Virus record (IMG/VR): IMGVR_UViG_3300017720_000037
Span: 1-31,742 of that record
Reading direction: 5' to 3' (one strand)
DNA: 31,742 bases
Origin: a virus
Made by a program: the position numbers and the translations under genes. The notes under the pieces are model-generated. The model ran no database searches and was not told the origin of the DNA. It saw nothing but the letters and a program-made list of their open reading frames with translations. Below, piece by piece: positions 1,627-28,029 of the stretch (positions are counted from its first letter, which is position 1; the number at the start of each line of letters is the position of its first letter).

Positions 1627-2052
1627 TTATATATTACAGTATTCTTTATTAGCATCGAAACACGGGCAGCTCTTCGCCGCAAACTCGTTGTGGCCATGTA
1701 TTGTAGCTTCTACATGCATCTTCTTTAATGTTTTAATTAACAATAATAAACTTTCTTTTTGTTCTGGTGTTCTAGTATCTTTAGCAATCCATTTGCCATT
1801 AGACCCACGCTCTGATTCAACGCCTCCAATATAGCAAATTCCTATAGAACCTTCATTTTCACCTTTAACATGAGCGCCTTGTTTGTATATACTACGACCA
1901 TACTCTATAGTACCGTCTAATAAAACTACATAATGGTAACCTATACCGTTCCAGCCTCTTTTTAAATGCCAACGATTTATCTCTGCAGCATCTAAATCTC
2001 TACCTTCTTGTGTAGCTGAACAGTGTACTATTATTTTATTTATCGTTCTCAT
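1627..2052 (-). CDS. N-acetylmuramoyl-L-alanine amidase, T7-lysozyme-like endolysin
   Basis: This enzyme should cut the amide bond between N-acetylmuramic acid and L-alanine in peptidoglycan, releasing progeny at the end of infection. The 141 residues follow phage T7 lysozyme along their whole length: IIVHCSAT, RGWNGIGYHYVV, GAHVKGENEGSIGICYIGG and HGHNEFAAKSCPCFD. By that match the zinc ligands are H10, H121 and C129, and the catalytic pair is Y39 and K127; all are present. There is no signal peptide, so export needs a holin, and a candidate lies at 617-778. The start overlaps the stop of the giant virion gene as ATGA, implying coupled translation. T7 lysozyme also inhibits its own RNA polymerase; nothing here shows that role. 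Confidence 0.95.
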   Translation of the reverse strand: MRTINKIIVHCSATQEGRDLDAAEINRWHLKRGWNGIGYHYVVLLDGTIEYGRSIYKQGAHVKGENEGSIGICYIGGVESERGSNGKWIAKDTRTPEQKESLLLLIKTLKKMHVEATIHGHNEFAAKSCPCFDANKEYCNI

Positions 2053-5000
2053 TCGTTATAAAGTTTATCTAGTTTTTCCATAGCTTTTTCTATAGCGCTA
2101 TCTATTTTTTCTTGAAACTCTTTGTCCTTCTTAAGATCATACTCTAACTTTTGATCCTCACTCATGTTATTGTATTTTTCTTCTTCTAGTTTTTTAAGTC
2201 TTGCTTTTTCTTGAGCTTTTCTTTTTCTAGTTTCTTTAGCTTTTATTTTACCTTCTTCTTTTCTACGAATTTTAGCATCTGCTTTTATTAAATCAAATTC
2301 TTCTATTTTAGAATTAACATCCCATGTTCTGAATCCTAAAGCTAAAGCTACTCTTTGGTATATAGTATTTCTATTATCAAAAGCTTCTGTAATAGCATTT
2401 ATCTCTGCAACCATTCTATCCATTGGTATATTAGCAGCTCCAGAAACTACACTACCAACAACTTGATATGACGGGCTTAATTGAAATCTACCATCAATTG
2501 TAACACTAAATCCTTTTTCAGCTATAACATCTCTTTCAAACTTCTTTGTTTGTATAGCAGAATAAATTTTTCTTAATTTAGACCCTAACGCTGGAGATAA
2601 ATTTGCAAGCTCTAATACCGTGTATGTATGATCAGCTGTAAACCCTTTCTTTTCTTCAAAGTTATATCTTCTTATAGCGTTTTTAATAGTAGATATAACA
2701 GCTCCACCTACACCAGAACCTCTTAATATAGTATCTATCATACTATTTGCTATTCTATCTTCTTTTTTACTTAATACTTCACCGTATTTTTTTAACTGTT
2801 CTTCTTCAGTTAGCTCATCGTCTGGTTCATCAAAGCCAGGTATCATAGCAAACAAGGCGTTTTGTAATGTTGAGAATATTAAATTCTGAACTATACCGTA
2901 GTAAACTATTTTTGATATATTAGTTTTAGCATCGCCTCTACCGTTCACCAAATCAAGTCCAGCTTTTTTCATCAACCTCGTGTACTGCATAGGTGTGTTT
3001 TGAAAGTTAAGTAAAAACCTACCTAACATACCAGCTTGCTGCTGTGATATCATAGAGGGATCTGCTGACTGCTGAGATTCTTCAGATGTTCTAGAAAAAT
3101 CTTCAAATGCTTTGGTCTCTGCCTCTGTTTGACTTAGCCCTTGTTTTTTATACGTATTAATTCTGTTTCTATAAAATGTTGCACCACCAGTTGCTATAGC
3201 CACACTATCTGCTACTTGAGTAAATACAAAACCGTTTCTTAATAATATACTTATAAAGGTACTCATTTTGTTTTTAGAACCTTTAACTGCAGCTGCAATT
3301 TCAGCTTCATTAATATCACCTTTTAAACCAGCTCTACGTTGCTTTAATTTATCAGAATTAAATAACATTACTACGTCAGACCAGTATTGATTTTGATTTG
3401 CAAAAGCTTTACCAGCCATAAAAGGATTATTGTCAGACCAGTTTATAAAGTTAACACTAGATATTAACTGTAGTAAAGCTGATCTTCTATTAAAAAACAT
3501 TATAGCACCTATGGATCTATTCAACCAATTCATCCAAGCGTTTGTCTGCCTGTCACTACCTTTTGGTCTATTGGTTCCATTTTTCATTCTCCATATAATA
3601 TTTTCTAAAGACTCTCTAACTCTAGAACCGTATACAGCTTCTATTTTAGTTAAGTTTTGTTCGCTAAATATTACATCTACATTCTCATTAAACTCAGATA
3701 GATACTCTGCTCTATTTACTTTTGTTGTTATAGTATTTAAATCACCAAGTATTGTTTGGCCTTGCCAATAAGTAGGAGGTTCAACATAAGTATCTTTTTT
3801 AGTAATCAAAAGAATTCCATCAGCAAATGATTGCAAGTTAGGATCTTCTCTTACTATTTTAGTTAGTATGTTTCTATCTCTATTAGATATACCTGGTATT
3901 TCAAAATCAGCTTGATCCCATAAATAAACCCTAACAGCTTCGTCATAAGTAAATTGCTCACCTGGTATTTTGCTTCTTAATACTTTTTTAATTTCAGGAA
4001 AGTTAGCCATCAAGTTTCTATAATCATTAGATACTCTTTGCTTGGCAGTTTCTATAGCCGCAACAGCTGAGGTGTAAGGTCTTATTAAAGCTTTATCAAA
4101 AAAGTCTTGATCCATTTCACCTTGCTTACCTTTACCAGCAAACATGTAAGATGTTAAACCTTTAAAGTCTTCTGCTGATGGCGGTAAAAACAAATTAAAT
4201 CTTTTCTTATTTTTACCTAGTCTTTGAGCTACAACTTGAGAATATCTAGCTTCTGCTTTTACGCCTTTGTTTCGTTCAATCATTTTATTAAACTCAAAGT
4301 CTAAATCTTTTTGAAACTTAACTCTAGCTATTTGTACTCTAGACTTAACATCTAGAACATCTAAAGCGTCTTTAACTGCTTTAACATTTTTAGTAGCGTC
4401 ATCAGTAAAGTAAAAGTCATTATAGCCTTCTGCAAATTTATTTATAACCCAATCAGCTTTAGCTTGAGCTTTACCATCAGCTAAACCTGTAATGTTTTGC
4501 AAAGGTATATTTAAACCTACTGAAGCTAAAAACTCTTGTATAGGTCCAGCAGCATCTTGAGGTCTAGCTGTTAATACAAATAAATCTTCTGAACCTCTTG
4601 CGTCTGCTATTTTTTTAGCAACATCAAACAAAGGTCCTTTTTTACCTTCAACTACTTTGCTAAACTCCGCAAAATCAAAGACAGCTCCTTCGCTTTCTAG
4701 CCTAGCAGCATCTGTAGCAAATTCAGTAGCGTTTATTCTACTGCTACTACCATCTGGCATGTTTACTATAACCATACTTTTAGATTGAGCTAGTGTATCG
4801 TCAAAATCAAAAATTCTAATCTTTTTTAATTTCTTAGAATCCTTAAGACTTTGTCTAGCTTTTTCCATCGCTATATCAGCATTGTTATTTTTATCAATAA
4901 CTTGCTGAGCATTTAAAGAAACACCAGTTGTTCCGTTGGTTGAGTTATAAAAATCTTCAAACTCTTGACCCACAACATCTCCAGTTTCATAAGACTGTAA

Positions 5001-8000
5001 ACCAAAAGGCATTTTACCTTTTGTAAATATATTATAATATCTTTTCCACCACTCTTGCTTGCCAGGTTGATAACCTATAAGCATTGACTGCGTGAAACCT
5101 GTATTACCTAAGACATCGTCCATTTCTTTAACAGGAATAATAGTAACCCTGTAATCATCTTTAAGTAAGTCTAGATCAATTTCTTTGTTACCGTTAAATA
5201 TAGATTCATACGCAAAAAACAAAACAGCTCTAGCAGGTATAGCATGCTCATATCTATAAGCAGGTTCATACTTTTGTTCACCATTAGGTTTTTTTACTAA
5301 CTTACCATCTCTTACCATAGGTATCTTAAGAGTGTCATATGGCATTTTAGTAGATCTACCCCATACAGGAGCGGCTAACCTAAGAGCGCTATTATTGCTA
5401 CCATTCATAACACCCATTAATAGTGATGTAGTGTTATTATCTAATCCCGAGGCATTCAAAGCCTTCATAAAGTCTATGAAAAAATTCCAAGCTAAATCAG
5501 CATCTAATTTGTTTTTATTTTGTAAAGACACTACTGTGTTACCGTCTTTGTCTTCAGTGTTTTCTTTACTTTTTTCAAACTTACCATTTACATACTGCAT
5601 TAAAACATCTGCACTAGTATTTATGTCTACTTTTCTATCAGGTCTACCGTCGTTAAACTTTATAGTTTTATCACTAATACTTACAACCCCGTCGTCTATT
5701 CTTTGAATTAATCTAAGAGTGTCAGACATATCTCCAAATATACCTGCTCTTACACTCATATTAGAAGGATTACGAAGTAAAGTATTATTTGGTTGAGGCG
5801 TAAAACCACCTGCTTTTTTCATACCATTACTGAAAGATGGCGGAACAAAAGCAACCATCATGTCTAAAGCTCTTTCAGAACCATAACTTGCTTTCAAAGC
5901 TTTGTATAAATTAATTTCTACAAAATCTCTAGCGTTTTGCATAGTACTCATATCTCTTAGAGATACTGAATTAGCCTGCTCCGCGCCTGTATATTTAACA
6001 ACATTTTCTACATTGTCAATATTTGTTATTACAGTTTCTAAATAATCAAACCATTCTTGTTCTGTCTCTAATACACCTGTTTTTCTTTGCGGTACAAGCA
6101 AGTTACCAAATTGATTTGCTACACCTATGTGTTGTTCATTTGTAAACCTATCACCATAAACAGCTTTATGAGCATTTTTTAATTTTGTTTTAATCTGCGT
6201 AGAAGTTAACTCTTGTAGGTTTAATCTTTTAACTTCGTCGTAAAACCTAGTTCTATTATCCAACCAGTCTGTTCTTTCGCCATCAGTAAATAAAGCTAGT
6301 TGATCTTTAACACTTGGTCTAGAAACATCATACATTAATTGCTCTACGTAGTTGTCTAGTATATCAGCTCCAAAAAACTCTTGACGTTCTATAAAGTCTC
6401 TTCTTATTTCACTATCAACATCTTGTATCTGCTCATTAAACATGTCTAATCCTATCTCTTGAGCTATTTGTTTAGCTAAAGCTTCCGTAGGCATTTGAGG
6501 TATTTTTAACTTACCATTATCAAGTTTAATATATTTAGATTTAAATTTAGCTAAAGGTATAGCGTTTTTAATATCTTTTACTCTTCGTATTTTTTGATTA
6601 CCAGCGGTGCTACCGGCCATAGGACCTAGTTCAGTAGACCTGTAAAAATCTACTTGCCCGTCTTTACTACCTTTTGTTCTACCTTTCCATTTATCATACT
6701 TAACCCAACCCATGCCGTTAACATACTTTTCTACAGCTAAAGGAAAAGCTTTTGCTAGATACGTAGTTGTAAGACCGTTTGGCCCTAACAGTGTAGCATA
6801 GTTTTCGTTTAAAAATTGCTCGTATAGATTTATGGTTTTATTTCTAGCACCCATTGCGTCTATAACAATTTTAAAAGATCCTTGCATTCCTTTTCCTAAC
6901 TCATTTACAAAATCAGTTTTTTGTTTTGTAGTAGTGTCGGCATTATATTTAGGTAATCTATATCTAATTTCCTTACCTAGTTTTTGTTCTAGTTTATTTT
7001 CTACTTCTGCTTGATTTGAAAACTTTACTTTTTCTTTTAAAGTAGGTTTTACTTCTTTAGCTTCTACTTCGGCTCTTCTGTTTAAAGTTTCCGTATTGTC
7101 TGTTGACCGCACGTTTTCAGCTGCATTGTCTTCACCTATTCTAACGTTGGCTTTTCCTTTTGGAACACCCAAATCTGTAGCAAATGCGTTAGCTCTCTGC
7201 ATTCCTCTATTTGCCATAAAACTAGGAAAAGTACCTAATGAAGGATCCCATTTTAACGCTATCTCACGAAGTTTACTTTTAGCATGATCTAAGTATGTTC
7301 TTCTACTGTAATGTACTTCTCTTATATTAAGCGGTACTCCACTACCAAATCTAGTCCAGGCTCTATTAGCAACTTTATTAACCATAGTATCTACGTCCTT
7401 AGGTAGAATAGGTTTAAAGTTTTCTTTACCTTCAAATCTAATGTTTATTCTATCAGCTATTTGCTTAGAGTCATTAACTCCTTGTCTAGGTTTAATACCT
7501 TCTTTACCTACCTTTGCTCTAACTTGAGAAGTAAATTCACCTCTTCTAAAAGCTGCATTGTTTCCTATTAAATAACTTAAAGCTTTTTCAGGTGTATTCA
7601 CTTTCAGTCCAAAGCCAGCTCTATTAGCTAACTTACTTAGTATATTTTGAGTACCATAGGTATCTTCTAAGTTTAATTCTTTTTCTAAAGCATAGCTAAG
7701 TGATTGCATTTCTGCAGCATATTCTATTTTAAAAGTATCACCTCTTTCGTTAAAAGGAAGTAATTCGCCTTTATCATTTCTAGCATCATTTGAATACTCT
7801 TCATTACTTAACAAAGCATTTTCAACCTTTGTATTTAAAGATCTTAATACGGGGTTTTCACTAGTCGATGTGGCTTTGTAGAGGTTGTCTGTATACTTAT
7901 TAAACTCTTCTTTAGTATCAAAATAAGATTCATCTATAGCATGACTGATCTCGTGGTATACAACAACGCCAGCTCTAATGTCTCCATTTTTCATAGCTTG

Positions 8001-11000
8001 ATCTGCCGCCTCTTTATTTATTGTAATATATTCATTGTCTACAATAAAACCATTTCCACCTTGTTTTAACTTATCCGTGAAAAGACTTATGTCTTTAGGG
8101 TTTATCTTACCGTTCTCAGCTAGTGTATATAAGTAACTTATCTGATCTTCTATGTTAGGTATTTCAATTATTTTTAAAGCGCCTATGTTTTCACGAGCCA
8201 TTAATTGATCTGCCTTAAAGTCTATATCACTAGATACAGTTACCACTCTAGTGTCTTGATCAAATAAAGCTCTACCACTTTGAGCATAGAAAGCATCTTG
8301 TAAAGCGTTTATTTTTTCTTTATATTCTTTTTTTCTTTTATCACCTTCATATTTAGAAGCTGCATTTTCTTTTAACTGCTCCCACTCTTTCTGTATTTCA
8401 GTATCTTCTTTAGCCTTATTGACATAAGACTCAGTCTCCATTCTATGTATTTCTTCTACAACCTGCGCTAACTCTTGTCTCTTATCTAGTTTACCGTTCC
8501 AGTTAGGAGTGTTTTCATCTAAGTTTAATCTAGCTTTTCTACCTGCATCACCTAACAACGTCTCTACATTGTCATAGTTTTTATTACCTTCTTTTATAGA
8601 GTTTATGTTTGTATCTAAGCTGTTTAAGTTTTGATCAAACCTTTCTGCCTCTACGTTAGTTAACTTTTCTTTTTTATAATTATCAATTTGGTTTTGAGCT
8701 TGGTTAGAATCCATATCAGGAGTAACGCCAGCTTCACTAAGCAAGTTATTTTTTAGTACATTTAAACCTACTAAGTCAACTACATTTTCAGAACCCAAAG
8801 CAATTACATCTACACCTAAAGCTGTTTGCTCAGCTCCTATATCTATAAGCTTTTGTTTTATAGCGGCGGTGAATGTTTTTCTTTGATTTTGACTAACACC
8901 TGGACCATTCATTAGGTTAACCATTTCTTGTACCTCAGATGTAGCTTTGTTTATTTTTTCTCTAAACTTTTTAGTAGCCGACATTTGAGTTATAGCTGAT
9001 GTAGCTATTCCAGATGTGTTTGCAAACCCAGCTGTTATAAGAGTAGCTAAAGTAGTGTCGTCAAACTGAGACCAATCAGCGTCTCTTTGTAATATTAAAG
9101 ATTCAGATATACCTTGTGTTCCACCATATATAAGATTTTCTTCTACTAGTTCACCACCAATTCTTTTACCACCTTCTATTGCAAAACTTCCCCAAGCGTT
9201 TAAACTTGGTTTGTTAAATAAATTATATATATTAATTTGACCTTGCCCTTTAACGTCTTTTAAAAACTTAAAGGTGTTATTAGCAGAACCTATATATCTA
9301 GTAACCCCACCCTCTATTATACCTGTAGCAACTGAAGCAGCACTTATTTGAAACGGTGTCATTTCCCCCATTGCTATAGTTTTCTCTGCATCAAGTAATC
9401 CTTGAGAGTAATCAAATTGATCTATTCTACCAGCCTCCCATAAACTATTAAGAGTTTCAACTTGTTTGTTTGCCATGTCTAAAAGATCAGCTTGAACGCT
9501 AAGATTCCTATACATGTCTGTACCAGAAGTCACACCAAACGTAGACGCTATAGATGTTTTAACTAAACCATCACTAAGCTTTAAAGCATTACCTGCAGAT
9601 CCAGTACCAATAGCTAATATTATATTTGGCGCTTGTTGAAATAAAGTTCTTACAGAATATAAACCAAATTCACCTTCACCAAACGCATCATCATATGCTG
9701 CTGATGATTTATAATATTCTTCTTTTCTTTGTAAAGCTTTTTGCTCATTAATAGCCCATTCAGAATTAAATAAAGTAGGTAAAGCTAAAGCTATATTATA
9801 ACTAGCGTCTGTAAAGTCTTTAGCAACCAAACTACCTATTTCATATTCTTTAAAAACACTACCAAATTCGTTTAGTATATTTCTTTTTACGTCTTTACCT
9901 TCTTCGTCTTTACCAACAACAACATTAGTGTCTTCTCTAAATTGAGAAGCTTCAGCAACGTGATTAACGTAATTTTCTATTGTTTTTTTGTAATCAGATT
10001 CTAATCTTCCTAAAGTATTTTGTAGGGTTATTAAACGTGCGTTAGCCTCGTTGTATACCTGCTGTTGATCCTCTGTTAATTCTTTTGTAGTTTCTAAATT
10101 AAAAAATAAAGTATTATCTACAATACCATCTGTCTTAGTATAACCTATTTTAGCTGGTATATCTTTTAAGCTATTAGCTATTAAATTTATTTCACCTTCT
10201 ATAATAGAACTTGTTGTGTCATTATAGTTTTGAATTATTTTTGCTTCGCTTTTAATTTCATCTTTTATAATGTCATAACCAGCGTTTTGTACAAGCAAAC
10301 CTATTCTAACTAACTCTCTTTCTCTTCTATCATAATCATACATAACAGATTCAGCAGCTGTTTGTTTTGCTTTAGCAATCGCTCCTTCTCTTTGTGTTTT
10401 AACAGAATAGTCTATAGCATTAGACCATAAGTTATTATTTAAAAGTTTTTCTTTTAAAGCAGCATTATCAATTCTAACCCCTTCATCAGCGAACTGCATA
10501 GTATCTAAAAAATCTAGATTACGTACATAATCTAATTGCTCTTCAGGCGTAAGCATTACTAACTCGTCCTCTGTAAACACACTTCCAGAGTCTACATATT
10601 CACCCCTTCCTTCGGGGTTAGCAGAAAACTTAAGCATATAATCTATTGCTTTTTGTTCTGCCTCTGTAAAATACTCTTTATTTTTTAATATATCTGCAAG
10701 TTTAGAGAACTGTCCAGATAAAACATCATAATCAAAAAGTTCTTCGTCTGGCTTGCTATTTACAGCATCAATACGTTTTGTCTCTTCAAGATCTAAAGTT
10801 TTTAAATGAGTAGACAACAAAGGGTACATGTTGGCCATAGACTTAGATAAATCTTCTTTAGTGAAGTTTTTAGCTATATAGTTTTCTATACTATCCGTAT
10901 TACCTATTCTTACTGGACCTTCTATTTCTTGATTAAATATATCACTAGCTACTACTTGTCCGTTTTGTTTTAATTCATAACCTATCACAAGACCCTCTTG

Positions 11001-11795
11001 TTCTACAGGTTCAAATGTATAAGCGGTATCTTTTAAGTTATCATTAACGTCTTCAACGTTTAAAGCTCCGCTATCAAAAGCGTTCATTATATTAGAAAAC
11101 GCACCTTGTTCAAAAGCGTTCTTGGCTTTAATTGTTTTTTCGTATTCTTGTATTTTCTTATAATTCTCAAAGAATTCTTTTTCACCTTTTTCAGTAAGTG
11201 GATTTAAGTCTAATGTAACTTTATCACCACCTAGATTAGCTGTAATTTTATCATCTAAAAAATAAGAGTTATCATCAAAAACAATACCTGAAAATTCACC
11301 TTGTAAAGCAAGTATAACTTCTTCATTACCTTTTCTTATTATAGTCTCAGGTATTTCTAAGTTTATATCTCCTTGCTCTATTTTAGTCTGAGCGTCTTTA
11401 ACTAGTTTTTCTAATTTTTTTCTTTGAGCTAAACCTGCTCTACCATTATTAGGATCAAATAGTTCGTTATTAAAATGAGCTAGATTAGCCTTAGCTTGTT
11501 TTAATTCTTTAAAAGGGTCTTCATCAAATACATCTGTGGCTGAAGCCAAAGAAATATTTTCCAAATCTAATTCCGTATTCTCGGGTGCTGGATCTATATC
11601 CGTCACTACACTTGCACCCGCATTTGGTACAGTGACTTGTTGAAAATCTATGTTTTCAGTTTCAATCTCCTCAACATCGCCTAGTTCAGCTAGGCCATTT
11701 TGGCTTATATATTGATCAACAAGTTCTACACCACCAGCTAGACCCACTAGCTCGTCATACGTGTATCGTTGTCCCGTTTCTGGGTTTACATACAT
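2049..11795 (-). CDS. Giant multidomain virion/ejection protein (polyvalent type): zincin, sigma-2-like, HAD
   Basis: A single uninterrupted 3248-residue frame. The N-terminus (MYVNPETGQRYTYDEL) begins about 700 mostly helical, acidic residues. A Gly/Ala/Ile-rich region with mild hydrophobicity lies near residues 720-960. HEISH at 1281-1285 with EYAAE at 1358-1362 fits a zinc metallopeptidase. WDPSLGTF at 1516-1523 resembles sigma-70 region 2. A complete HAD phosphatase set follows: DFDDTLA 2330-2336, VLTARP 2407-2412, FTDD 2463-2466. Residues about 2750-3000 hold conserved-looking Trp/Asn/Gln-rich and hydrophobic helices (FQNTPMQYTR, NLIFSTLQNALFAMIPGF), and the end is a Lys/Glu coiled coil. 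The position after two internal-virion-like genes and before the amidase matches T7 gene 16, so packaging in the head and ejection into the host are inferred. No lytic transglycosylase motif was found. Confidence 0.85.
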   Translation of the reverse strand: MYVNPETGQRYTYDELVGLAGGVELVDQYISQNGLAELGDVEEIETENIDFQQVTVPNAGASVVTDIDPAPENTELDLENISLASATDVFDEDPFKELKQAKANLAHFNNELFDPNNGRAGLAQRKKLEKLVKDAQTKIEQGDINLEIPETIIRKGNEEVILALQGEFSGIVFDDNSYFLDDKITANLGGDKVTLDLNPLTEKGEKEFFENYKKIQEYEKTIKAKNAFEQGAFSNIMNAFDSGALNVEDVNDNLKDTAYTFEPVEQEGLVIGYELKQNGQVVASDIFNQEIEGPVRIGNTDSIENYIAKNFTKEDLSKSMANMYPLLSTHLKTLDLEETKRIDAVNSKPDEELFDYDVLSGQFSKLADILKNKEYFTEAEQKAIDYMLKFSANPEGRGEYVDSGSVFTEDELVMLTPEEQLDYVRNLDFLDTMQFADEGVRIDNAALKEKLLNNNLWSNAIDYSVKTQREGAIAKAKQTAAESVMYDYDRRERELVRIGLLVQNAGYDIIKDEIKSEAKIIQNYNDTTSSIIEGEINLIANSLKDIPAKIGYTKTDGIVDNTLFFNLETTKELTEDQQQVYNEANARLITLQNTLGRLESDYKKTIENYVNHVAEASQFREDTNVVVGKDEEGKDVKRNILNEFGSVFKEYEIGSLVAKDFTDASYNIALALPTLFNSEWAINEQKALQRKEEYYKSSAAYDDAFGEGEFGLYSVRTLFQQAPNIILAIGTGSAGNALKLSDGLVKTSIASTFGVTSGTDMYRNLSVQADLLDMANKQVETLNSLWEAGRIDQFDYSQGLLDAEKTIAMGEMTPFQISAASVATGIIEGGVTRYIGSANNTFKFLKDVKGQGQINIYNLFNKPSLNAWGSFAIEGGKRIGGELVEENLIYGGTQGISESLILQRDADWSQFDDTTLATLITAGFANTSGIATSAITQMSATKKFREKINKATSEVQEMVNLMNGPGVSQNQRKTFTAAIKQKLIDIGAEQTALGVDVIALGSENVVDLVGLNVLKNNLLSEAGVTPDMDSNQAQNQIDNYKKEKLTNVEAERFDQNLNSLDTNINSIKEGNKNYDNVETLLGDAGRKARLNLDENTPNWNGKLDKRQELAQVVEEIHRMETESYVNKAKEDTEIQKEWEQLKENAASKYEGDKRKKEYKEKINALQDAFYAQSGRALFDQDTRVVTVSSDIDFKADQLMARENIGALKIIEIPNIEDQISYLYTLAENGKINPKDISLFTDKLKQGGNGFIVDNEYITINKEAADQAMKNGDIRAGVVVYHEISHAIDESYFDTKEEFNKYTDNLYKATSTSENPVLRSLNTKVENALLSNEEYSNDARNDKGELLPFNERGDTFKIEYAAEMQSLSYALEKELNLEDTYGTQNILSKLANRAGFGLKVNTPEKALSYLIGNNAAFRRGEFTSQVRAKVGKEGIKPRQGVNDSKQIADRINIRFEGKENFKPILPKDVDTMVNKVANRAWTRFGSGVPLNIREVHYSRRTYLDHAKSKLREIALKWDPSLGTFPSFMANRGMQRANAFATDLGVPKGKANVRIGEDNAAENVRSTDNTETLNRRAEVEAKEVKPTLKEKVKFSNQAEVENKLEQKLGKEIRYRLPKYNADTTTKQKTDFVNELGKGMQGSFKIVIDAMGARNKTINLYEQFLNENYATLLGPNGLTTTYLAKAFPLAVEKYVNGMGWVKYDKWKGRTKGSKDGQVDFYRSTELGPMAGSTAGNQKIRRVKDIKNAIPLAKFKSKYIKLDNGKLKIPQMPTEALAKQIAQEIGLDMFNEQIQDVDSEIRRDFIERQEFFGADILDNYVEQLMYDVSRPSVKDQLALFTDGERTDWLDNRTRFYDEVKRLNLQELTSTQIKTKLKNAHKAVYGDRFTNEQHIGVANQFGNLLVPQRKTGVLETEQEWFDYLETVITNIDNVENVVKYTGAEQANSVSLRDMSTMQNARDFVEINLYKALKASYGSERALDMMVAFVPPSFSNGMKKAGGFTPQPNNTLLRNPSNMSVRAGIFGDMSDTLRLIQRIDDGVVSISDKTIKFNDGRPDRKVDINTSADVLMQYVNGKFEKSKENTEDKDGNTVVSLQNKNKLDADLAWNFFIDFMKALNASGLDNNTTSLLMGVMNGSNNSALRLAAPVWGRSTKMPYDTLKIPMVRDGKLVKKPNGEQKYEPAYRYEHAIPARAVLFFAYESIFNGNKEIDLDLLKDDYRVTIIPVKEMDDVLGNTGFTQSMLIGYQPGKQEWWKRYYNIFTKGKMPFGLQSYETGDVVGQEFEDFYNSTNGTTGVSLNAQQVIDKNNNADIAMEKARQSLKDSKKLKKIRIFDFDDTLAQSKSMVIVNMPDGSSSRINATEFATDAARLESEGAVFDFAEFSKVVEGKKGPLFDVAKKIADARGSEDLFVLTARPQDAAGPIQEFLASVGLNIPLQNITGLADGKAQAKADWVINKFAEGYNDFYFTDDATKNVKAVKDALDVLDVKSRVQIARVKFQKDLDFEFNKMIERNKGVKAEARYSQVVAQRLGKNKKRFNLFLPPSAEDFKGLTSYMFAGKGKQGEMDQDFFDKALIRPYTSAVAAIETAKQRVSNDYRNLMANFPEIKKVLRSKIPGEQFTYDEAVRVYLWDQADFEIPGISNRDRNILTKIVREDPNLQSFADGILLITKKDTYVEPPTYWQGQTILGDLNTITTKVNRAEYLSEFNENVDVIFSEQNLTKIEAVYGSRVRESLENIIWRMKNGTNRPKGSDRQTNAWMNWLNRSIGAIMFFNRRSALLQLISSVNFINWSDNNPFMAGKAFANQNQYWSDVVMLFNSDKLKQRRAGLKGDINEAEIAAAVKGSKNKMSTFISILLRNGFVFTQVADSVAIATGGATFYRNRINTYKKQGLSQTEAETKAFEDFSRTSEESQQSADPSMISQQQAGMLGRFLLNFQNTPMQYTRLMKKAGLDLVNGRGDAKTNISKIVYYGIVQNLIFSTLQNALFAMIPGFDEPDDELTEEEQLKKYGEVLSKKEDRIANSMIDTILRGSGVGGAVISTIKNAIRRYNFEEKKGFTADHTYTVLELANLSPALGSKLRKIYSAIQTKKFERDVIAEKGFSVTIDGRFQLSPSYQVVGSVVSGAANIPMDRMVAEINAITEAFDNRNTIYQRVALALGFRTWDVNSKIEEFDLIKADAKIRRKEEGKIKAKETRKRKAQEKARLKKLEEEKYNNMSEDQKLEYDLKKDKEFQEKIDSAIEKAMEKLDKLYNE

Positions 11796-11810: not shown

Positions 11811-13577
11811 TTATAAGTCAACGTAATCTGTTAACTGCACTCTTTCATCGTTAGTAAATGAGGATTTTCCATTGTGTTTTGAAGTTACCCAAGCACCAGC
11901 GCCTGTTACACCTTCTGAACTAGAATTCACCCATATCATTGGTTTCCAATTATCTCCAGAAGACGTTATTTTTCTATCACCAGCTTGTGGTTTAGATAAT
12001 CTACCAGACATAGCTGCGCTAAATATATCACCTCTAAAGTTTGTATTTTCAAATCTATTTACTTGAGCGTTTTTATTAGACAAGGCTGTTTGTTGAGCGG
12101 CACTTAAACCTCTATTACCTTGCGGAGCATAAGACATAGATGGATCTGATTCTTTGAAGTAACCATAGTCACCAGCTTTGTAATTAGTAAGACCTCTTTC
12201 TTTTAGTTGCTTTATGTCATCGTCTGTTAATTCTCTTCTAACAAAACCAAAGCCAGGCGTTTCACCCACTTTATCTTCAGCTTCTTTAAGAGTATACTTT
12301 TTATTAGTATCTGGATTTGTACTTTCCATTAGCTGTTCAATATTCATAGAGCTAGTTAATCCGGCATCTTCTCGTATTTTATTTATTTCAGCTAACCTTA
12401 ACCACGCTTTTTGTTGGTCAGGATCTAATGTAACAAAGTCCTCCATCTTAATATCACCCATTTCTAAGCGTTGTTCCATATAAGCTTTCTTATCTCTAGG
12501 TGGTAAAGCATATAAACCAGCTAATCTTCCCTCTAATTGTTTTTCTAAAGCCTTGTCTATGCCTTTCATATCTATAAATTCAGAAGCAACTAAAGTTCTA
12601 ACTTTACCAGCAGCTGTACGTATGGTATCTCCAACAGGCGTCCAAGCTGTTTTAAAACTAGCTGTTATTTCACCTTTTGATTTATCTAGTATATTAGCAT
12701 CTACCAAAGTTTGATTTCCATCAGTGGCTGGTTCAGTTGCTTTTAATAACTGACCGTCCCAGTTTTTCATGTTTTTCTTCCACGTAAAAGTAACACTACC
12801 ATCGTCATTTATTTTATATACATTATTAGCATCTTTGTTTTTAGCCTTTGTTAACCAACCCTCTTCTCCTAAACCACCTTTTAATATTTCAGAACCTTTT
12901 GCAACTGTAGTTACAACTTCTACAACTCTATCACCGTTACTTAATCTCCTGTAATCTTTGCTATCAACAGTCGTTCCTTCAGCTGAAATGTTCGATAAAC
13001 CAAAAGCTGCTAGTTGAGTACCTAGTTGTTCTTGAAAATTACCACCTTCCCAGTTTGATTCACGACCTGGACCTGGCCCATCTTTATATAATTCTACATC
13101 TTGTACGTCTGATAATATTATACCAGCATCGTCTTGTAGATCTCTTAAGTTTTTATTTGCAGCAGAAACTATATCACTATAATCTTTTCTTTGTTCTTTT
13201 GTTAAACCTCCTCTAGTTTCTAAAATAGTTTTAGCTTCTATAGATCCCATTACATAATCATCGTCACCAGGTTTACCAACACCCTCCATTAATCTAACTT
13301 GTATTGCTTTAGCTTTATCTATTATAGAGTTTTCTAAACCAGCGTCTTCAACATCCTCATATATCTGGTCAGCAGATTCGTAAGCTTTTAACGAAGCTTT
13401 GTTCCAAGCTAAATCAAATACATCTTGTTTTTTCTTAGCTATTTCAGCGTTTTTAATTTTAAAATCTACATAATTCTGATAACCTGTAACTACAGCTTGA
13501 CTGACTTGCTGTGCTGCTGCCGCCCAACCTAGAGCTGATTTATCGTTTATTAATTTAGGATTGTCGTATGCACTCAT
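11811..13577 (-). CDS. Internal virion protein candidate, 588 aa (T7 gp15-like position)
   Basis: No catalytic motif is recognised. The first 180 residues are helical and charged, starting with an Ala/Gln-rich segment (LGWAAAAQQVSQAVVTGYQN). Later parts are mixed helix and strand with many Asp, Lys and Gly. The C-terminus (about 510-588) is Ser/Gly/Trp-rich (SSGDNWKPMIWVNSSSEG). No signal peptide or membrane helix is seen. It lies between the small Gly/Ala-rich virion protein gene and the giant protein gene, with gaps of 12 and 15 bases. That is the place T7 gp15 holds between gp14 and gp16. A role in the ejection complex is inferred from order and composition. Confidence 0.75.
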   Translation of the reverse strand: MSAYDNPKLINDKSALGWAAAAQQVSQAVVTGYQNYVDFKIKNAEIAKKKQDVFDLAWNKASLKAYESADQIYEDVEDAGLENSIIDKAKAIQVRLMEGVGKPGDDDYVMGSIEAKTILETRGGLTKEQRKDYSDIVSAANKNLRDLQDDAGIILSDVQDVELYKDGPGPGRESNWEGGNFQEQLGTQLAAFGLSNISAEGTTVDSKDYRRLSNGDRVVEVVTTVAKGSEILKGGLGEEGWLTKAKNKDANNVYKINDDGSVTFTWKKNMKNWDGQLLKATEPATDGNQTLVDANILDKSKGEITASFKTAWTPVGDTIRTAAGKVRTLVASEFIDMKGIDKALEKQLEGRLAGLYALPPRDKKAYMEQRLEMGDIKMEDFVTLDPDQQKAWLRLAEINKIREDAGLTSSMNIEQLMESTNPDTNKKYTLKEAEDKVGETPGFGFVRRELTDDDIKQLKERGLTNYKAGDYGYFKESDPSMSYAPQGNRGLSAAQQTALSNKNAQVNRFENTNFRGDIFSAAMSGRLSKPQAGDRKITSSGDNWKPMIWVNSSSEGVTGAGAWVTSKHNGKSSFTNDERVQLTDYVDL

Positions 13578-13589
13578 AGTAATTATTTT

Positions 13590-14318
13590 TTATGCTGTTG
13601 CAGCTTTATAATTTAAACCAGCTGAAGCCATGCTTGCTACACCTGATATAGCAGATCCCCATGCTCCAGCCTCAGCTTGCGCCGCGTTGGATTGGGCTTG
13701 CATAGCGTTAGCTAGATTACCAGCTTCATACCCTAAGTCTGCATTAGACCTAGCTTCTTCCATTTGCATTTGGAAAGTCTTGCCAGCTGCTTCACCAGCT
13801 TGTAATCTTTGACCTTCTGATATTGCTATACCTTGTAGTCTCTGTTCCTCTGAAACTTTCATAGCTTGAAGTGATGCTTCACCTTGTGCTCTTAGTTGTT
13901 CGTTCTTAGCTTCTTGAGCTTCAATATCTGCAGCAACACCTTTTTTGCTTGCTAAAGCGGCTTGAGCTAAAGCAGTCGCGCCACCAGCACCAGCACCTGT
14001 AGATTTTATTGTGTCTAACGTATTTGCTAAAGCTATATCAGCTTGTTCCATTTTAATCTCTGCAGCTTGCGTTGCTACGCCTAAACTAGAGAATGGATTA
14101 TTCATCATACCTGACAAGTTTTCAGCTAACCCAGATAGATTAACTTGATTTGCATAAGGATTAACTATATCAACTCTAGCGGCTTTAATTGCTGCTATCT
14201 CTGCTCTAGCTCTACGAGCATCATTACGAGCTCCTTTACCCGCTTTTCTTGCCTGGTTAGCTGACACTGCTCCTCCAATAAGGGAAACTCCAGCTCCGAT
14301 TGCTGCTACTGCTGCCAT
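13590..14318 (-). CDS. Gly/Ala-rich internal virion protein candidate, 242 aa (T7 gp14-like)
   Basis: The protein has hydrophobic Gly/Ala-rich ends (AAVAAIGAGVSLIGGAVSAN at residues 2-21 and WGSAISGVASMASAGLNY near the C-terminus). A long Ala/Gln/Glu-rich helical body lies between them (for example ALAQAALASKKGVAADIEAQ). This layout is that of small ejected virion proteins such as T7 gp14 and P22 gp7, which insert in the envelope during DNA delivery; the function here is by analogy. The gene begins one base after the stop of the GNAT-like gene and is followed 12 bases later by the 588-residue protein gene. Confidence 0.75.
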   Translation of the reverse strand: MAAVAAIGAGVSLIGGAVSANQARKAGKGARNDARRARAEIAAIKAARVDIVNPYANQVNLSGLAENLSGMMNNPFSSLGVATQAAEIKMEQADIALANTLDTIKSTGAGAGGATALAQAALASKKGVAADIEAQEAKNEQLRAQGEASLQAMKVSEEQRLQGIAISEGQRLQAGEAAGKTFQMQMEEARSNADLGYEAGNLANAMQAQSNAAQAEAGAWGSAISGVASMASAGLNYKAATA

Positions 14319-14319
14319 A

Positions 14320-14733
14320 TTATCTTATTTTTTTAATTATTTCATGTGATGGATTTTCATCCACCGTGTACCCTAATTTCTTGTGTTTATCTATTAGACT
14401 TTTGCTTCTACCTATACTAAGTATTAATTTAAAACCTCCATCATAAGCCCATTGCTCTAATGAATCTATTAATAATAATATAGCTTGCTCTCTGTCTTTT
14501 TTAATTCTATACTTTGGATTTGATATAATCCATTCCATCCAAGCTATTTTTGAATTTGTTCCGTATAAAAAACCTGCTACTATAGGTTCACCTTCTTTTT
14601 CTATTATAATTCCACCTGTACCGTTTTCAGGTAACATTTCTTGTGCCAAAGGCTCCCACTCTGGCCAAGACTTCCACCATTCTACGATAGTGCTATAGTC
14701 TTTTTCAGTTAGTCTTCTTGCTGTTAATTTCAT
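14320..14733 (-). CDS. GNAT-like acyltransferase-fold protein in T7 gp13 position
   Basis: The 137-residue protein has the layout of the GNAT fold. It opens with the N-terminal strand MKLTARRLTEKDYSTIVEWW. A central strand pair follows with a small-residue turn (IIIEKEGEPIVAGFLYGTN), then a helix after IKKDREQAILLLIDSLEQWA. A late strand-helix comes next (FKLILSIGRSKSLIDKHKKLGYTV). The acetyl-CoA loop, normally R/QxxGxG/A, appears only as RIKKDREQA, so catalysis is uncertain. T7 gp13 (formerly DUF2833) also belongs to the GNAT-like fold and sits just before genes 14-16, as here. It may be a virion assembly factor with a degenerate enzyme fold rather than an active acetyltransferase. Confidence 0.75.
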   Translation of the reverse strand: MKLTARRLTEKDYSTIVEWWKSWPEWEPLAQEMLPENGTGGIIIEKEGEPIVAGFLYGTNSKIAWMEWIISNPKYRIKKDREQAILLLIDSLEQWAYDGGFKLILSIGRSKSLIDKHKKLGYTVDENPSHEIIKKIR

Positions 14734-14747
14734 TTAATTGTATTTGA

Positions 14748-16313
14748 TTAATAAGATGATCTATTGAATTCGCTAGAAACTGCGAATAATTCTCTTTGTG
14801 CTGACTGGTTTGCTGTTGGAACAGTAAACTTTACTTCAGAAGTAAAACCTTTAACGCCTGTTATAGCTTGTCCAAATAAAACCTCACCTTGCTGTACAGC
14901 TGTTAGGTTTAATAAATTAGCAAAATATTTATTTTCTTTTCTTTTAAAATTATTAGTAAACAAAGATGTTTGTAAGTCAGCTAGTGTTGTTGGTAGTTGG
15001 TATTCTGATATTTGTAAAGCAACATCTTGATCTGTTGTTAGCGACTCCATTATCCAACCACTGCTACCTTCATAGTTAATAGTATTAAAGTTTTTAACAA
15101 CTGAAGGTGATGGATTAAGCACTAAATTAACACTAGACGTGTAAGTTGTATTATAAAACTGAGCTCTGTTTACGCTCGTAGAATAATGCTGCCATATTTC
15201 ACCTTCATAATAAGTGTATAGATTATTTCTTAAACTACCTATAGCATCTGGAAAATAATCAAATCTACTAGTCCAACCTTTTACCGCTTCATCAAAAGCA
15301 ACAGTTTCAGGATCAAAACCATTTTTAACTAAACCTTCAGCTCCACCTATAGAAACAATGTATTGCTTATTATGCATGTCATAACCGCCGACTATTGGTA
15401 AACTACCTGCGCCAGCTAAGTTATCTCTAAAGAAATCAATCATACCATACATAGATATTTCAGTAATACCGTCTTGTGATAATCTTAATATTAGATTTTT
15501 AGTTCTATCTGCAAAGTATTTTCTATATCCAAATACACCAAAGCTTTCTGGGTTTGTACTTATTCCGTATTCACCAGCGTAAGGTACTATACCGCCTATT
15601 ACTACATTTGAAGCCGCTTGTAATGGTTGACCTTCTTGAGTATATATAGCGTCTTTATCTATAAGTGCTTTACTTACTTTTAATTCTTGAAATATAATTA
15701 AGTTAGTATCTTCTGCGTAAAGTTTTTGTATAGAGCCATAAGATGGGTCTACGCTTCTACTGATATTTTCTGCTACAGAAAACTGATTAGTATTGTTAAC
15801 ACCCGTTCTAGAATTAAAAACTCCAGAATATATCATAGAATTAAATCTATTGTTTTGAGAGGCGTTATCTTCTACTAAGTAGGCTTTTACACCTAAATCT
15901 ACATTTGTATTATTGTAACCTCCTCTTATCCTAGCTTCTTCAGCATACCAGTCTGATGGATCACTTGAATAAACTCTAGGTATTTCAGTAAACAATTCAA
16001 TAGGACCAAAAATTAAAACATCAGTAGCCGTTAAATTAACAGCTCTAGATAAAGTAACTGTGTAAGGTGATGCGCTCATTGAAGAAGATATCAAATAAAC
16101 TCTACTTGGAAATCCTACCACATCAACCCCGTTTGCATCTTTAGCATAAACTCTTTGTCCATAACCTAAGTCAGGAACGTAAGTAGTAATTGTTTGAGTA
16201 ACACTATCAGCATCTACACTTATTATACCCGTATTAGGTCTAACCTCTGCTATAGAATCCATCTTCTTTATCCAAAAAGAGTTAAAATAGTTTATTTCAA
16301 TAGTTGCCGCCAT
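14748..16313 (-). CDS. Tail/muzzle distal-half protein, P22 gp10-like family, 521 aa
   Basis: The middle of the protein carries the pattern I associate with the distal part of P22 gp10-like tail needle-adaptor or muzzle proteins of Bacteroidota podoviruses. That pattern is GSIQKLYAEDTNLIIFQE, then KDAIYTQEGQP, GISTNPESFGVFGYRKYF and LSQDGITEISMYGM. The N-terminal 90 residues form a Thr/Val-rich beta domain, and the C-terminus is beta-rich. It should sit in the short tail next to the 1783-residue protein, whose gene ends 29 bases upstream in another frame. Both genes have proper stops and starts, so this looks like a natural two-gene version of a family that is often one chain. The tail location is well supported; the exact subunit is inferred. 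Confidence 0.75.
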   Translation of the reverse strand: MAATIEINYFNSFWIKKMDSIAEVRPNTGIISVDADSVTQTITTYVPDLGYGQRVYAKDANGVDVVGFPSRVYLISSSMSASPYTVTLSRAVNLTATDVLIFGPIELFTEIPRVYSSDPSDWYAEEARIRGGYNNTNVDLGVKAYLVEDNASQNNRFNSMIYSGVFNSRTGVNNTNQFSVAENISRSVDPSYGSIQKLYAEDTNLIIFQELKVSKALIDKDAIYTQEGQPLQAASNVVIGGIVPYAGEYGISTNPESFGVFGYRKYFADRTKNLILRLSQDGITEISMYGMIDFFRDNLAGAGSLPIVGGYDMHNKQYIVSIGGAEGLVKNGFDPETVAFDEAVKGWTSRFDYFPDAIGSLRNNLYTYYEGEIWQHYSTSVNRAQFYNTTYTSSVNLVLNPSPSVVKNFNTINYEGSSGWIMESLTTDQDVALQISEYQLPTTLADLQTSLFTNNFKRKENKYFANLLNLTAVQQGEVLFGQAITGVKGFTSEVKFTVPTANQSAQRELFAVSSEFNRSSY

Positions 16314-16342
16314 ATTATATTATCACTTATTTTTTTAATTTA

Positions 16343-19300
16343 TTACGTACAAACTGCACTTTGAACACCTGACATTGAGGCTTCTCTTAATACCGGTATA
16401 CCTTGCACTTGTTGATCAGTACCACGTACGTCAGGATATCCATCAAATCTTTGTGCCAAAATAACAGTTGCTGAATCAGCCGCATAGGGACTGTATGTTG
16501 TATAACCATTCACTAGTTCACCAGATGCGCTAAATTTTCCTTTATAAACTACTTTACTACCAGTTTTGTGGTTATAAGGCTCCCACTCATTCGTATTGAT
16601 ATTAAAATCCCAATTAGCAATAAATGGATTTGTACATACAGCACTTACAGAACCTAATACGCTCCAATACCCTACTCCTGCTTGACAACTTGAGCCTGTG
16701 CATTTTTCTTGTTGAATTAAACCTCCTTCAAAAGTGTGATACAGACCTCCTTGTACACCAGAATTTGGTTCCCATGGGGTTAATAAAGTTGAATCACTAA
16801 AAAACTGCCTAACAGTATTACCATATTTTGCATGAGCATACACTGTCTCTGGGGTTCCTATTGGTAAAAGATTTACATTTGGAAATGAGCTAGTTGATCC
16901 ACCGTCTCTTTGAACTGTATATGGGTAACTATATAAAACACCTTGATCTTGAGCTCCTGACATGTAACTGAAATTAGCATCTTCGGCTGTTATAGAAACA
17001 TAACCTTGATACGCGCCTTGAACGCCGTAACCTGAGTCACACGCACAGCAACCAGAAGCTGAGATTTGAGTACCATTACCCTGAGTTACTTTTACAGCTA
17101 TAAAGTATTCACCAGGTAATTGATTTGCATCTATATATATTATACCTTTTGTTAATGCTTGGTTAGAATTCGTGCTGGCAGATCTAGTAAATACATTAGC
17201 TTGTAAATTAAAAGCTGGTGAATTAGAAATAGCAGTGGTAGTAGACGCGTTATTAGCGTCGCCTATTTCAACCCAAGAGTTTTGATTTGGCGTATTTGTA
17301 TCAACTGCTCTATGGAATATTCTAATATATTGAATTTCAGCATAATTTTCTCTTTGTCCACCAGCACCACCAGCTGAAGGACAATCCATTATATTTTCTA
17401 AATTTATTTCTACAATCATAGCACCACTTGTTAATGCTACAGGTGTTAAACCAGCGGTTGTGTCACCTCCTACAAGTTCAACTGAATTATATCTATCATA
17501 AGTACCTGTTCCAAGAGATGGTGCTTGATTATTAGGTCCATTTGCAATAATTGGCGCGTTACCAACACCGTTTTGTCTTGGGCCAAAATAATAACCACCA
17601 ATACCAAAAAACGTATCACCTGAACCACCGGGTCCCACTGGATTTATTGCAACGCCTGTACCAGCGCTGTTAGTAGAAGGATCAATAACACTTGGTGAAA
17701 AGCCCATATTCCAGCAAGAAAATCCACTTGTGCTAGCGCAATTGGTAGAACCTGGCTTAAACTCTTGTGTCCAAATATTTTCGCTACTGGTAAAGTTTCC
17801 TTGATAATAAGGTGGAACCATTTCAGGACCTACTGTTATTGTGAATGAGCACGTTGTTTGCATTGTTGCGTACTCAGGCACTGCATTAGTGAGAGGACCA
17901 CCAGTGCTAGTTAAATACGCATCTCTTACTCTAACTGTTAAAGGGTAAACTCCTAAAGGAACATTTTGACCTAAGGTTTGATTTAAAGTAAGTACACCAG
18001 TCAAACCATCTAATACAAAATAATTATCACCAAAGTCTGTTACTTGGTCCGTAGTTATATCAAAAAACAAATCTGTTGCTGCTGAGCTAGTTAGTGTTGT
18101 CCCGTTAACTGCATCAAAATCTATAACAGTACCTGTTTCTGTTTGACTAGTTACAGTTATATAATCACTACAGTTAGCAAGTGAGAATGAAGGTGCAAAG
18201 TTTTGTAGTCTACCAGGGAAAGTTCTTGTTGTTACTTCTCCATTATAAGTTATAGCTAAAGAGAAAGTAAAACTTTCTACAGTTGCCGCTGAATTTAAAA
18301 AAGCGTGATTGCTGGTTATAAACTTAACTCTATAACCACCTGCTTCTTGCTGTGAAGATTGAGGCACTTGTTCTAATTGAAAATCACCAGAAACATTATC
18401 ACCAGCAAGATTTGTAACAGTCATAACTGCTGTTGTGTTCGTAAGATTTACACCTGTATTATTACGAGGGTAAAATATATCTGTTATCCAGGGTGAATTT
18501 GATGCACCTGTAGCACCAGTTAGTATGTTGTTATCAGCTCCATCAAAGTTTTGATTTTCTATAAATTCAAAACCTACAGCTGAAAAACCACCTGGCGCGT
18601 CTGATCCAGCTTCTACATCTTGATTGATGTCTGAAATATAATTCCAACCAGTTGTGCTTTCCCAAAAAATATCTAACAATGAATCTACTGGCGCTGTTTC
18701 ATATATACTCAACCAAGGGACCATGTCAGCGGCTATAACACCTAGCTTTTGATTAGTAGAAAATCTAGCCACAATAGGGTTTGTTTCTAGTTGGTACAAG
18801 TTTCTAGCCGCGCTACCATTAAAATTATCTACTGAATATTGATAAAAACCTAAGTCATCTGCAGTACCTACTGTAGAGGCAATATCAGGTTTTTGCGTAG
18901 GGTAATACTGTTCGTTATCACCATACTCTATTATTATATTATCAGCGTCTGCTTTAATAGCACCACCTGGACTAAATGTAACTGTTGTTTCATCTGCAAC
19001 CGCATCATACTCTACCTTAGTAATAAGAGTTGCGTTAGAAAAGAACTGAGGATCTTGATAAGCAGGAGGGTTACTAGTTGGTGTACAGTCTGGGTATTGC
19101 ACTTCACATTTACCCATTAACAAGGCCATACCTGGTTCTAATGCTTTTTCTTGACCCGTGCAAGAACCTGTTGGGCAAAATACCGTTGTGTTTGTAGGAT
19201 CATTTACACCAGTGAATTTAATTTCATTTACTTGATCAGCACCAGGACCAGCAGGTGAACCACCAGAATGACTCCAGTTTGTTATATTAAATTTACCCTC

Positions 19301-21697: not shown

Positions 21698-22198
21698 TTA
21701 ATTTTTAAATTTTCCGTCTGGTAAATATTTTTTTAATCTATCTAATATTTTAGTGCTAGTGTTTTTAGAAAACAAAGATCCAAGTGAACCTACAAAATTA
21801 TTAGTTGCATCTTCTACTGATTCTAAAATAGGTCTGCCTTCTCTTATATTTTGAGCTTCATGAATTAATCCACCTACATTAGAACCTACTATACCAGCTA
21901 CTCTTTTTGTAATAGGACCAAGATACTTAAGTTTATTTTGTATTGCTCTAGAAGTTTGATCACCAGCAAAATAATGTCTAGCCGTATCGCCGTGCTCAAA
22001 AGAGTTTTGCTCTTCCATTAAACCATCTTTGTCTGGAGTAATACTTAAATACTCATCAGTTCTTTGTCTTGCTTTTTCTTGTGGAAAGTTTAAAACCTCT
22101 TCAGCTTTATGTTCTATGTTTGACAAAGCATTAGACTGGTTTGGTGGATCTTGTTTGTTAATAGGGTTTTTACCCGTAAATTTTGATGAAAAACTCAT
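21698..22198 (-). CDS. Hypothetical 166-aa protein in the tail module
   Basis: This protein is not assigned to a family. The N-terminal third is polar (KFTGKNPINKQDPPNQSNAL). The centre has a helical block with regularly placed acidic, His and Arg residues: FEHGDTARHYFAGDQTSRAI, then GSNVGGLIHEAQNIREGRP. The D-x-x-R-H followed by H-E recalls uncharacterised helical domains in phage and toxin-related proteins, which could be a metal site, but I cannot name it. The C-terminus is Ser/Lys-rich. It lies 5 bases after the ring protein gene and 3 bases before the large tail protein gene, so a tail assembly or virion role is likely from context. Confidence 0.7.
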   Translation of the reverse strand: MSFSSKFTGKNPINKQDPPNQSNALSNIEHKAEEVLNFPQEKARQRTDEYLSITPDKDGLMEEQNSFEHGDTARHYFAGDQTSRAIQNKLKYLGPITKRVAGIVGSNVGGLIHEAQNIREGRPILESVEDATNNFVGSLGSLFSKNTSTKILDRLKKYLPDGKFKN

Positions 22199-28005: not shown

Positions 28006-28029
28006 TAATTAAATAATTAAATAATTAAA
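28006..28029. repeat. Three tandem copies of TAATTAAA before the scaffold gene
   Basis: The plus strand carries three perfect 8-base units of TAATTAAA, which overlap the portal stop codon at 28025-28027. On the minus strand they read TTTAATTA and are followed by TATATTATATTATG, the scaffold start. The array could act as an A/T-rich translation leader for a host that does not use Shine-Dalgarno pairing, or as a protein site. Confidence 0.7.

Follow-up and report, generated by a model that had tools for sequence, protein, structure and literature searches.

The giant open reading frame of the window, the 31,742-base IMG/VR virus record analysed here, probably encodes an ejection (cargo) protein in the gp16 position of an uncultured short-tailed phage with a probable Bacteroidota host, which would be injected carrying a zincin and a HAD phosphatase as cargo. 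The protein is judged to be of a known kind, the polyvalent or ejection proteins, with a new architecture in which a zincin and a HAD domain are combined. The frame extends from 2049 to 11795 on the minus strand as a single open ATG frame of 3248 aa without interruption, as the initial annotation had described without giving the strand, and the HEISH motif (residues 1281-1285), the DPSLGTF block (1516-1523) and the HAD motifs (2330-2466) listed there are likewise present. Relatives with 94% identity share the start and stop codons. A comparison with the locus L003 yields an overall dN/dS of 0.084, with values of 0.050 for the zincin, 0.051 for the HAD domain, 0.044 for the C-terminal core and 0.146 for residues 1560-2295; the frame is under strong purifying selection. 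A Pfam search of 17 whole giants returned a single match, to the CEP192 Aurora-A binding region in one member (E 6e-4), which is probably a chance match, and no paper on the family was found in the openly accessible literature.

Gene neighbourhood and place in the virion

The window also contains a partial TerL, a portal gene (28025-30436, on the minus strand, like the muzzle and cassette genes), a virion structural protein (phrog_13704), tail-type genes, a muzzle with crAss_MUZ_C, the cassette and an amidase. The portal and TerL proteins match only phages of Flavobacterium (elemo), Cellulophaga, Tenacibaculum and Maribacter, in addition to uncultured and environmental records, which points to Bacteroidota as the likely host phylum and supports the earlier description of a short-tailed phage related to Bacteroidota phages. 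The host phylum is an indirect reading, as the MAGs containing the related genome contigs are mixed and some are probably misbinned. Four giant-bearing contigs (L167, L170, L172 and L173) are binned into Alphaproteobacteria or Woesearchaeota MAGs and are probably misbinned phage contigs.

A conserved gene cassette ends with the giant. The muzzle consists of an N-terminal part (16343-21694; phrog_14478, split over two ORFs) and a C-terminal part (14748-16313; crAss_MUZ_C), and its domain is related to the crassvirus muzzle. Across 14748-21694, phrog_14478 (1474 positions) extends over two neighbouring ORFs (1783 and 521 aa), as it also does in L003, and in L127 both parts are joined in a single 1018-aa ORF. 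Downstream lie a 137-aa GNAT-like protein (14320-14733), for which Acetyltransf_1 is recognised in 6 of 14 homologues, a 242-aa protein in the gp14 position with an N-terminal hydrophobic segment (13590-14318), a 588-aa protein in the gp15 position (11811-13577) and the giant. The order of muzzle, GNAT-like protein (where present), a protein of 200-330 aa, a protein of 330-690 aa and the giant recurs wherever the loci reach far enough upstream, with homologues of the 242-aa gene in 79 of 109 loci and of the muzzle in 70 of 109. Upstream of the muzzle lies a gene for a 166-aa protein (21698-22198), whose homologue in L083 and L093 is found just downstream of the giant gene.

This order, together with the size pattern, corresponds to the gp14-gp15-gp16 operon of T7-type phages, in which gp14 has approximately 200 aa, gp15 is variable, and gp16 is large, varying at its N-terminus and keeping its C-terminal helices (PMC8954989), a distribution of variability that the giant shares. 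The recurring layout therefore agrees with the T7-like ejection cassette that had been proposed. However, the giant is more than twice as long as gp16 and has no match to a peptidoglycan-hydrolase family or to solved ejection proteins. PDB profile searches with the 242-aa family and the core detect no sequence homology to T7-type ejection proteins, and the 242-aa family matches neither T7 gp14 nor any other solved ejection protein. A further parallel exists in crAss001, in whose virions mass spectrometry identified the cargo proteins gp45, gp46 and the 262-kDa gp47, encoded directly after the muzzle gp44 (PMC10172136). The cassette of the window occupies the same slot behind a muzzle with crAss_MUZ_C, whereas gp47 is RNA-polymerase-associated and the giant has no such similarity.

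The record of Cellulophaga phage phi40:1 carries the remark "experimental MS/MS proteomics" for gp97-gp101, which is the whole syntenic cassette. By profile, gp98 and gp99 are homologues of the 137-aa and 242-aa proteins (E 1.5e-12 and 1.5e-7, respectively), and gp100 matches the 588-aa gene in position. No sequence match is detectable between gp101 and the giant, so that this slot is matched by position only. The same slot is occupied by gp74 of Tenacibaculum phage Gundel_1, gp18 of Flavobacterium phage elemoE and a 3859-aa protein of Manatee Spring phage (with gp101, from Pervagoviridae, Pachyviridae and Elemovirus). The core profile matches Gundel_1 gp74, annotated as a structural protein, with E 2e-12, and the zincin profile matches the giants of elemoE (E 4e-8) and Manatee Spring phage (E 1e-4). 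The 137-aa proteins of the latter two phages are contained in the 137-aa profile, which therefore matches them by construction; the other links are independent. These slot-equivalent giants differ from the giant of the window in that none has a HAD motif or profile match, and overall they are not alignable by blast. The synteny with the MS/MS-detected cassette supports the earlier designation as a virion protein and strongly suggests that the giant is packed in the virion, from which it would be ejected into the host.

The C-terminal core and the HAD domain

A tblastn search of 50,697 named phage records with the giant yielded nothing at 1e-3, the best weak match being the Gundel_1 structural protein (E 6e-3), while IMG/VR contains 44 relatives of the C-terminal segment and 558 of the HAD segment. 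The giant may thus represent a common environmental injection protein that lacks a cultured model. The assembled set comprises 105 distinct giants with lengths of 1000 aa or more. Of the 89 complete ones, 88 contain the C-terminal core, 86 the HAD domain and 82 HExxH. Many members were fetched with the HAD domain, which biases these counts; among those fetched with the core only, HAD and HExxH are each present in 26 of 29. The N-terminal approximately 2300 aa often lack blast similarity even where the core is approximately 60% identical, as in L077. By sequence comparison, this N-terminal part is swapped freely, and the HAD domain and the approximately 640-aa core are common to approximately 100 environmental giants.

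The core (residues 2525-3170; 2286-4223) is predicted to be helical (pLDDT 76.6). In an alignment of 56 sequences, the core together with the HAD domain (residues 2295-3170) is never less than 44% identical to the query. A Foldseek search of the PDB with the whole core gives chance helical matches only, and a PDB profile search with its alignment finds nothing significant, as holds for fold and sequence matches of all modules tested against the PDB. In BFVD, the close matches of the core are four uncharacterised virus proteins (31-44% identity); less similar matches cover a wide range of phage giants, several of which are named large polyvalent protein-associated or PolyVal-ART (E 1e-4 to 1e-7, 10-14% identity). 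The predicted core fold thus supports the kinship with polyvalent proteins that the initial annotation had pointed to, and the presence of at least two functional domains, zincin and HAD, in one polypeptide among virion genes is in keeping with it. The hydrophobic C-terminal region reported earlier is less evident: only two windows in it reach a Kyte-Doolittle value of 1.2 (maximum 1.28), the whole giant has fewer such windows than shuffled sequences (5 versus 9.2), and hydropathy reveals no clear membrane helix in the helical core.

In the survey of polyvalent proteins by Iyer, Aravind and colleagues in 2017 (PMC5512222), zincin is named, and the terms haloacid, HAD superfamily and phosphatase are absent from the text. 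The giant shares with the surveyed proteins a multidomain organisation among virion genes, the zincin as a hub and the core fold, and differs from them in that its core is fused to a HAD phosphatase. The suggestion that this combination may be new therefore holds against the survey text, but the combination is not unique to the window, being found among approximately 100 distinct giants. Profile searches recover the HAD domain and, moderately against Pfam, the zincin, but no sigma factor, and none of the Pfam LPD families matches the giant.

The HAD-superfamily phosphatase domain (residues 2322-2510; 4266-4832) displays motif I (D2330, D2332 and T2334 of DxDxT), motif II (T2409), motif III (K2446) and the acidic pair of motif IV (D2465 and D2466) in a Rossmann-like order, and strands and helices alternate in this region of the predicted model. 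These residues (D36, D38, T40, T115, K152, D171 and D172 of alignment A1) are invariant in 56 of 56 diverse homologues. The family phrog_415, annotated as polynucleotide kinase, is matched by 23 of 37 HAD members and by the query alone with E 1.2e-5, DUF2608 by 24 members (best 2.7e-7) and Pfam HAD by 9 (best 0.0016), whereas a PDB profile search with the HAD alignment gives no significant match. The HAD phosphatase of the initial annotation is well supported by these comparisons. Relative to its homologue in phrog_415, the domain is fused within a virion-type giant, and no kinase domain is seen.

Free-standing HAD relatives of approximately 170-190 aa (L179-L185) occur in MAG and single-cell contigs, several of the latter from Bacteroidetes. 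In L116, L131 and L134 the HAD domain precedes the zincin motif, and the giants of L026, L028 and L054 lack it. The change of order, the HAD-less giants and the free-standing forms indicate that the HAD domain moves as a module and is by now almost fixed in these giants. In L020, L027 and L125 the domain carries long extra insertions soon after motif I, in the flap or cap region.

The zincin-like module and the DPSLGTF segment

The zincin-like metallopeptidase module (residues 1160-1430; 7506-8318) contains the HEISH zinc motif (7941-7955), of which H, E and H are invariant, and downstream the sequence EYAAE (residues 1358-1362; 7710-7724), whose E1358, invariant in 18 sequences, is the probable third zinc ligand. 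In the family, the pattern reads HE.lH and then EE.lt.fsda, the counterpart of EYAAE, and both the motif and the Glu are helical in the model. A profile made without the query's group recovers the query with E 1.8e-6, where the best-scoring among 200 shuffles reaches 0.2, and with 97.1% in hhalign; as for all custom profiles, the E-value refers to a small target set and is to be weighed against shuffled and positive controls. Matches to known zincin families are weak, namely Peptidase_M78 in 7 of 40 family members (best E 0.0012) and M91 (best 4e-4; query alone 0.01). The poor model of the zincin and DPSLGTF region (pLDDT 60.5) has no Foldseek match, and the PDB profile search with the zincin alignment finds nothing significant. 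The zinc peptidase noted initially is therefore supported through its own family and the conserved HExxH and Glu, and only moderately against Pfam.

The segment that had been called sigma-like is a real module (residues 1454-1551; 7143-7436) that is conserved in 21 giants and has 10 relatives in IMG/VR. Its resemblance to sigma is confined to the eight residues WDPSLGTF (1516-1523). The module has no match in Pfam, none to PF04542, although controls were detected, and none in a PDB profile search, and hhalign against sigma region 2 gives a probability of 0.2%, within the range of column shuffles, versus 99.4% for the positive control. These four independent tests lead us to reject the sigma-factor reading and leave a conserved module that has no Sigma70_r2 profile similarity.

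Proposed action and alternative explanations

According to the proposed mechanism, the giant would be packaged in the virion alongside its 242-aa and 588-aa partners and, by analogy with T7 and crAss001, would exit at adsorption ahead of the DNA through the portal and the muzzle. The helical core, judged from its universality and gp16-like position, would be the structural, ejection-machine part, and the remainder of the giant would be cargo. The zincin, if active, probably cleaves the giant itself or host proteins inside the cell, and the HAD domain, whose nearest family is phrog_415, probably strips phosphates off nucleic-acid ends or nucleotides, which would protect or prime the incoming genome. 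It is a tentative and rather doubtful extension that a major aquatic lineage of short-tailed phages injects an active HAD phosphatase fused to its ejection machine for early action. If so, the targets of the enzyme during the first minutes would be either 3' ends of nucleic acids or host (defence) nucleotide signals, and its activity would form a class not described for polyvalent proteins. The giant would tie ejection machinery to injected enzymes in a testable manner, with one conserved core, N-terminal cargo that can be exchanged and a phosphatase that is almost fixed.

A serious possibility, short of an even chance, is that the packaged giant uses its zincin in virion assembly or on itself, as a maturation protease that frees domains, and not on the host. 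Polyvalent zincins have been proposed to process their own multidomain polypeptide (PMC5512222), and the zincin separates the variable N-terminal region from the HAD domain and core, but no conserved split is seen. The giant genes of L024 and L117 are broken inside or just before the HAD domain by what look like frameshifts, probably assembly errors, so that neither is likely to represent a natural split there. It is improbable that the giant is a scaffold or inner-core protein in which both folds survive as structural relics without catalysis: approximately 10% of the core-fetched giants lack HAD and approximately 10% lack HExxH, yet every catalytic residue is kept in all 56 aligned HADs, HExxH and the downstream Glu persist beside flanks at approximately 20% identity, dN/dS is approximately 0.05 and free-standing HAD relatives exist.

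A role in launching transcription, whether as an N4-like virion RNA polymerase or as a sigma-bearing protein, is highly improbable for the giant. N4-like phages eject a virion RNA polymerase of approximately 3500 aa with a zincin (PMC12633501, PMC5512222), and the DPSLGTF block resembles sigma region 2; however, profiles detect no sigma similarity, and the RNA polymerase reading finds no family match in the giant. Somewhat less remote, though still quite unlikely, is a late product outside the virion with a role inside the infected cell, such as lysis together with the adjacent amidase (endolysin; 1627-2052, minus strand), whose start codon overlaps the stop codon of the giant. In many relatives, however, the muzzle and the 242-aa neighbour are retained where the amidase lies elsewhere or is not detected, the syntenic phi40:1 cassette is virion-borne, and the core homologue of Gundel_1 is annotated as structural; an ejected virion protein remains the preferred reading. 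Separately, a 95-aa basic protein encoded at 1329-1616 matches the C-termini of phage families whose members are far larger (phrog_10346 and phrog_3477); 24 of 109 loci have it close to the giant.
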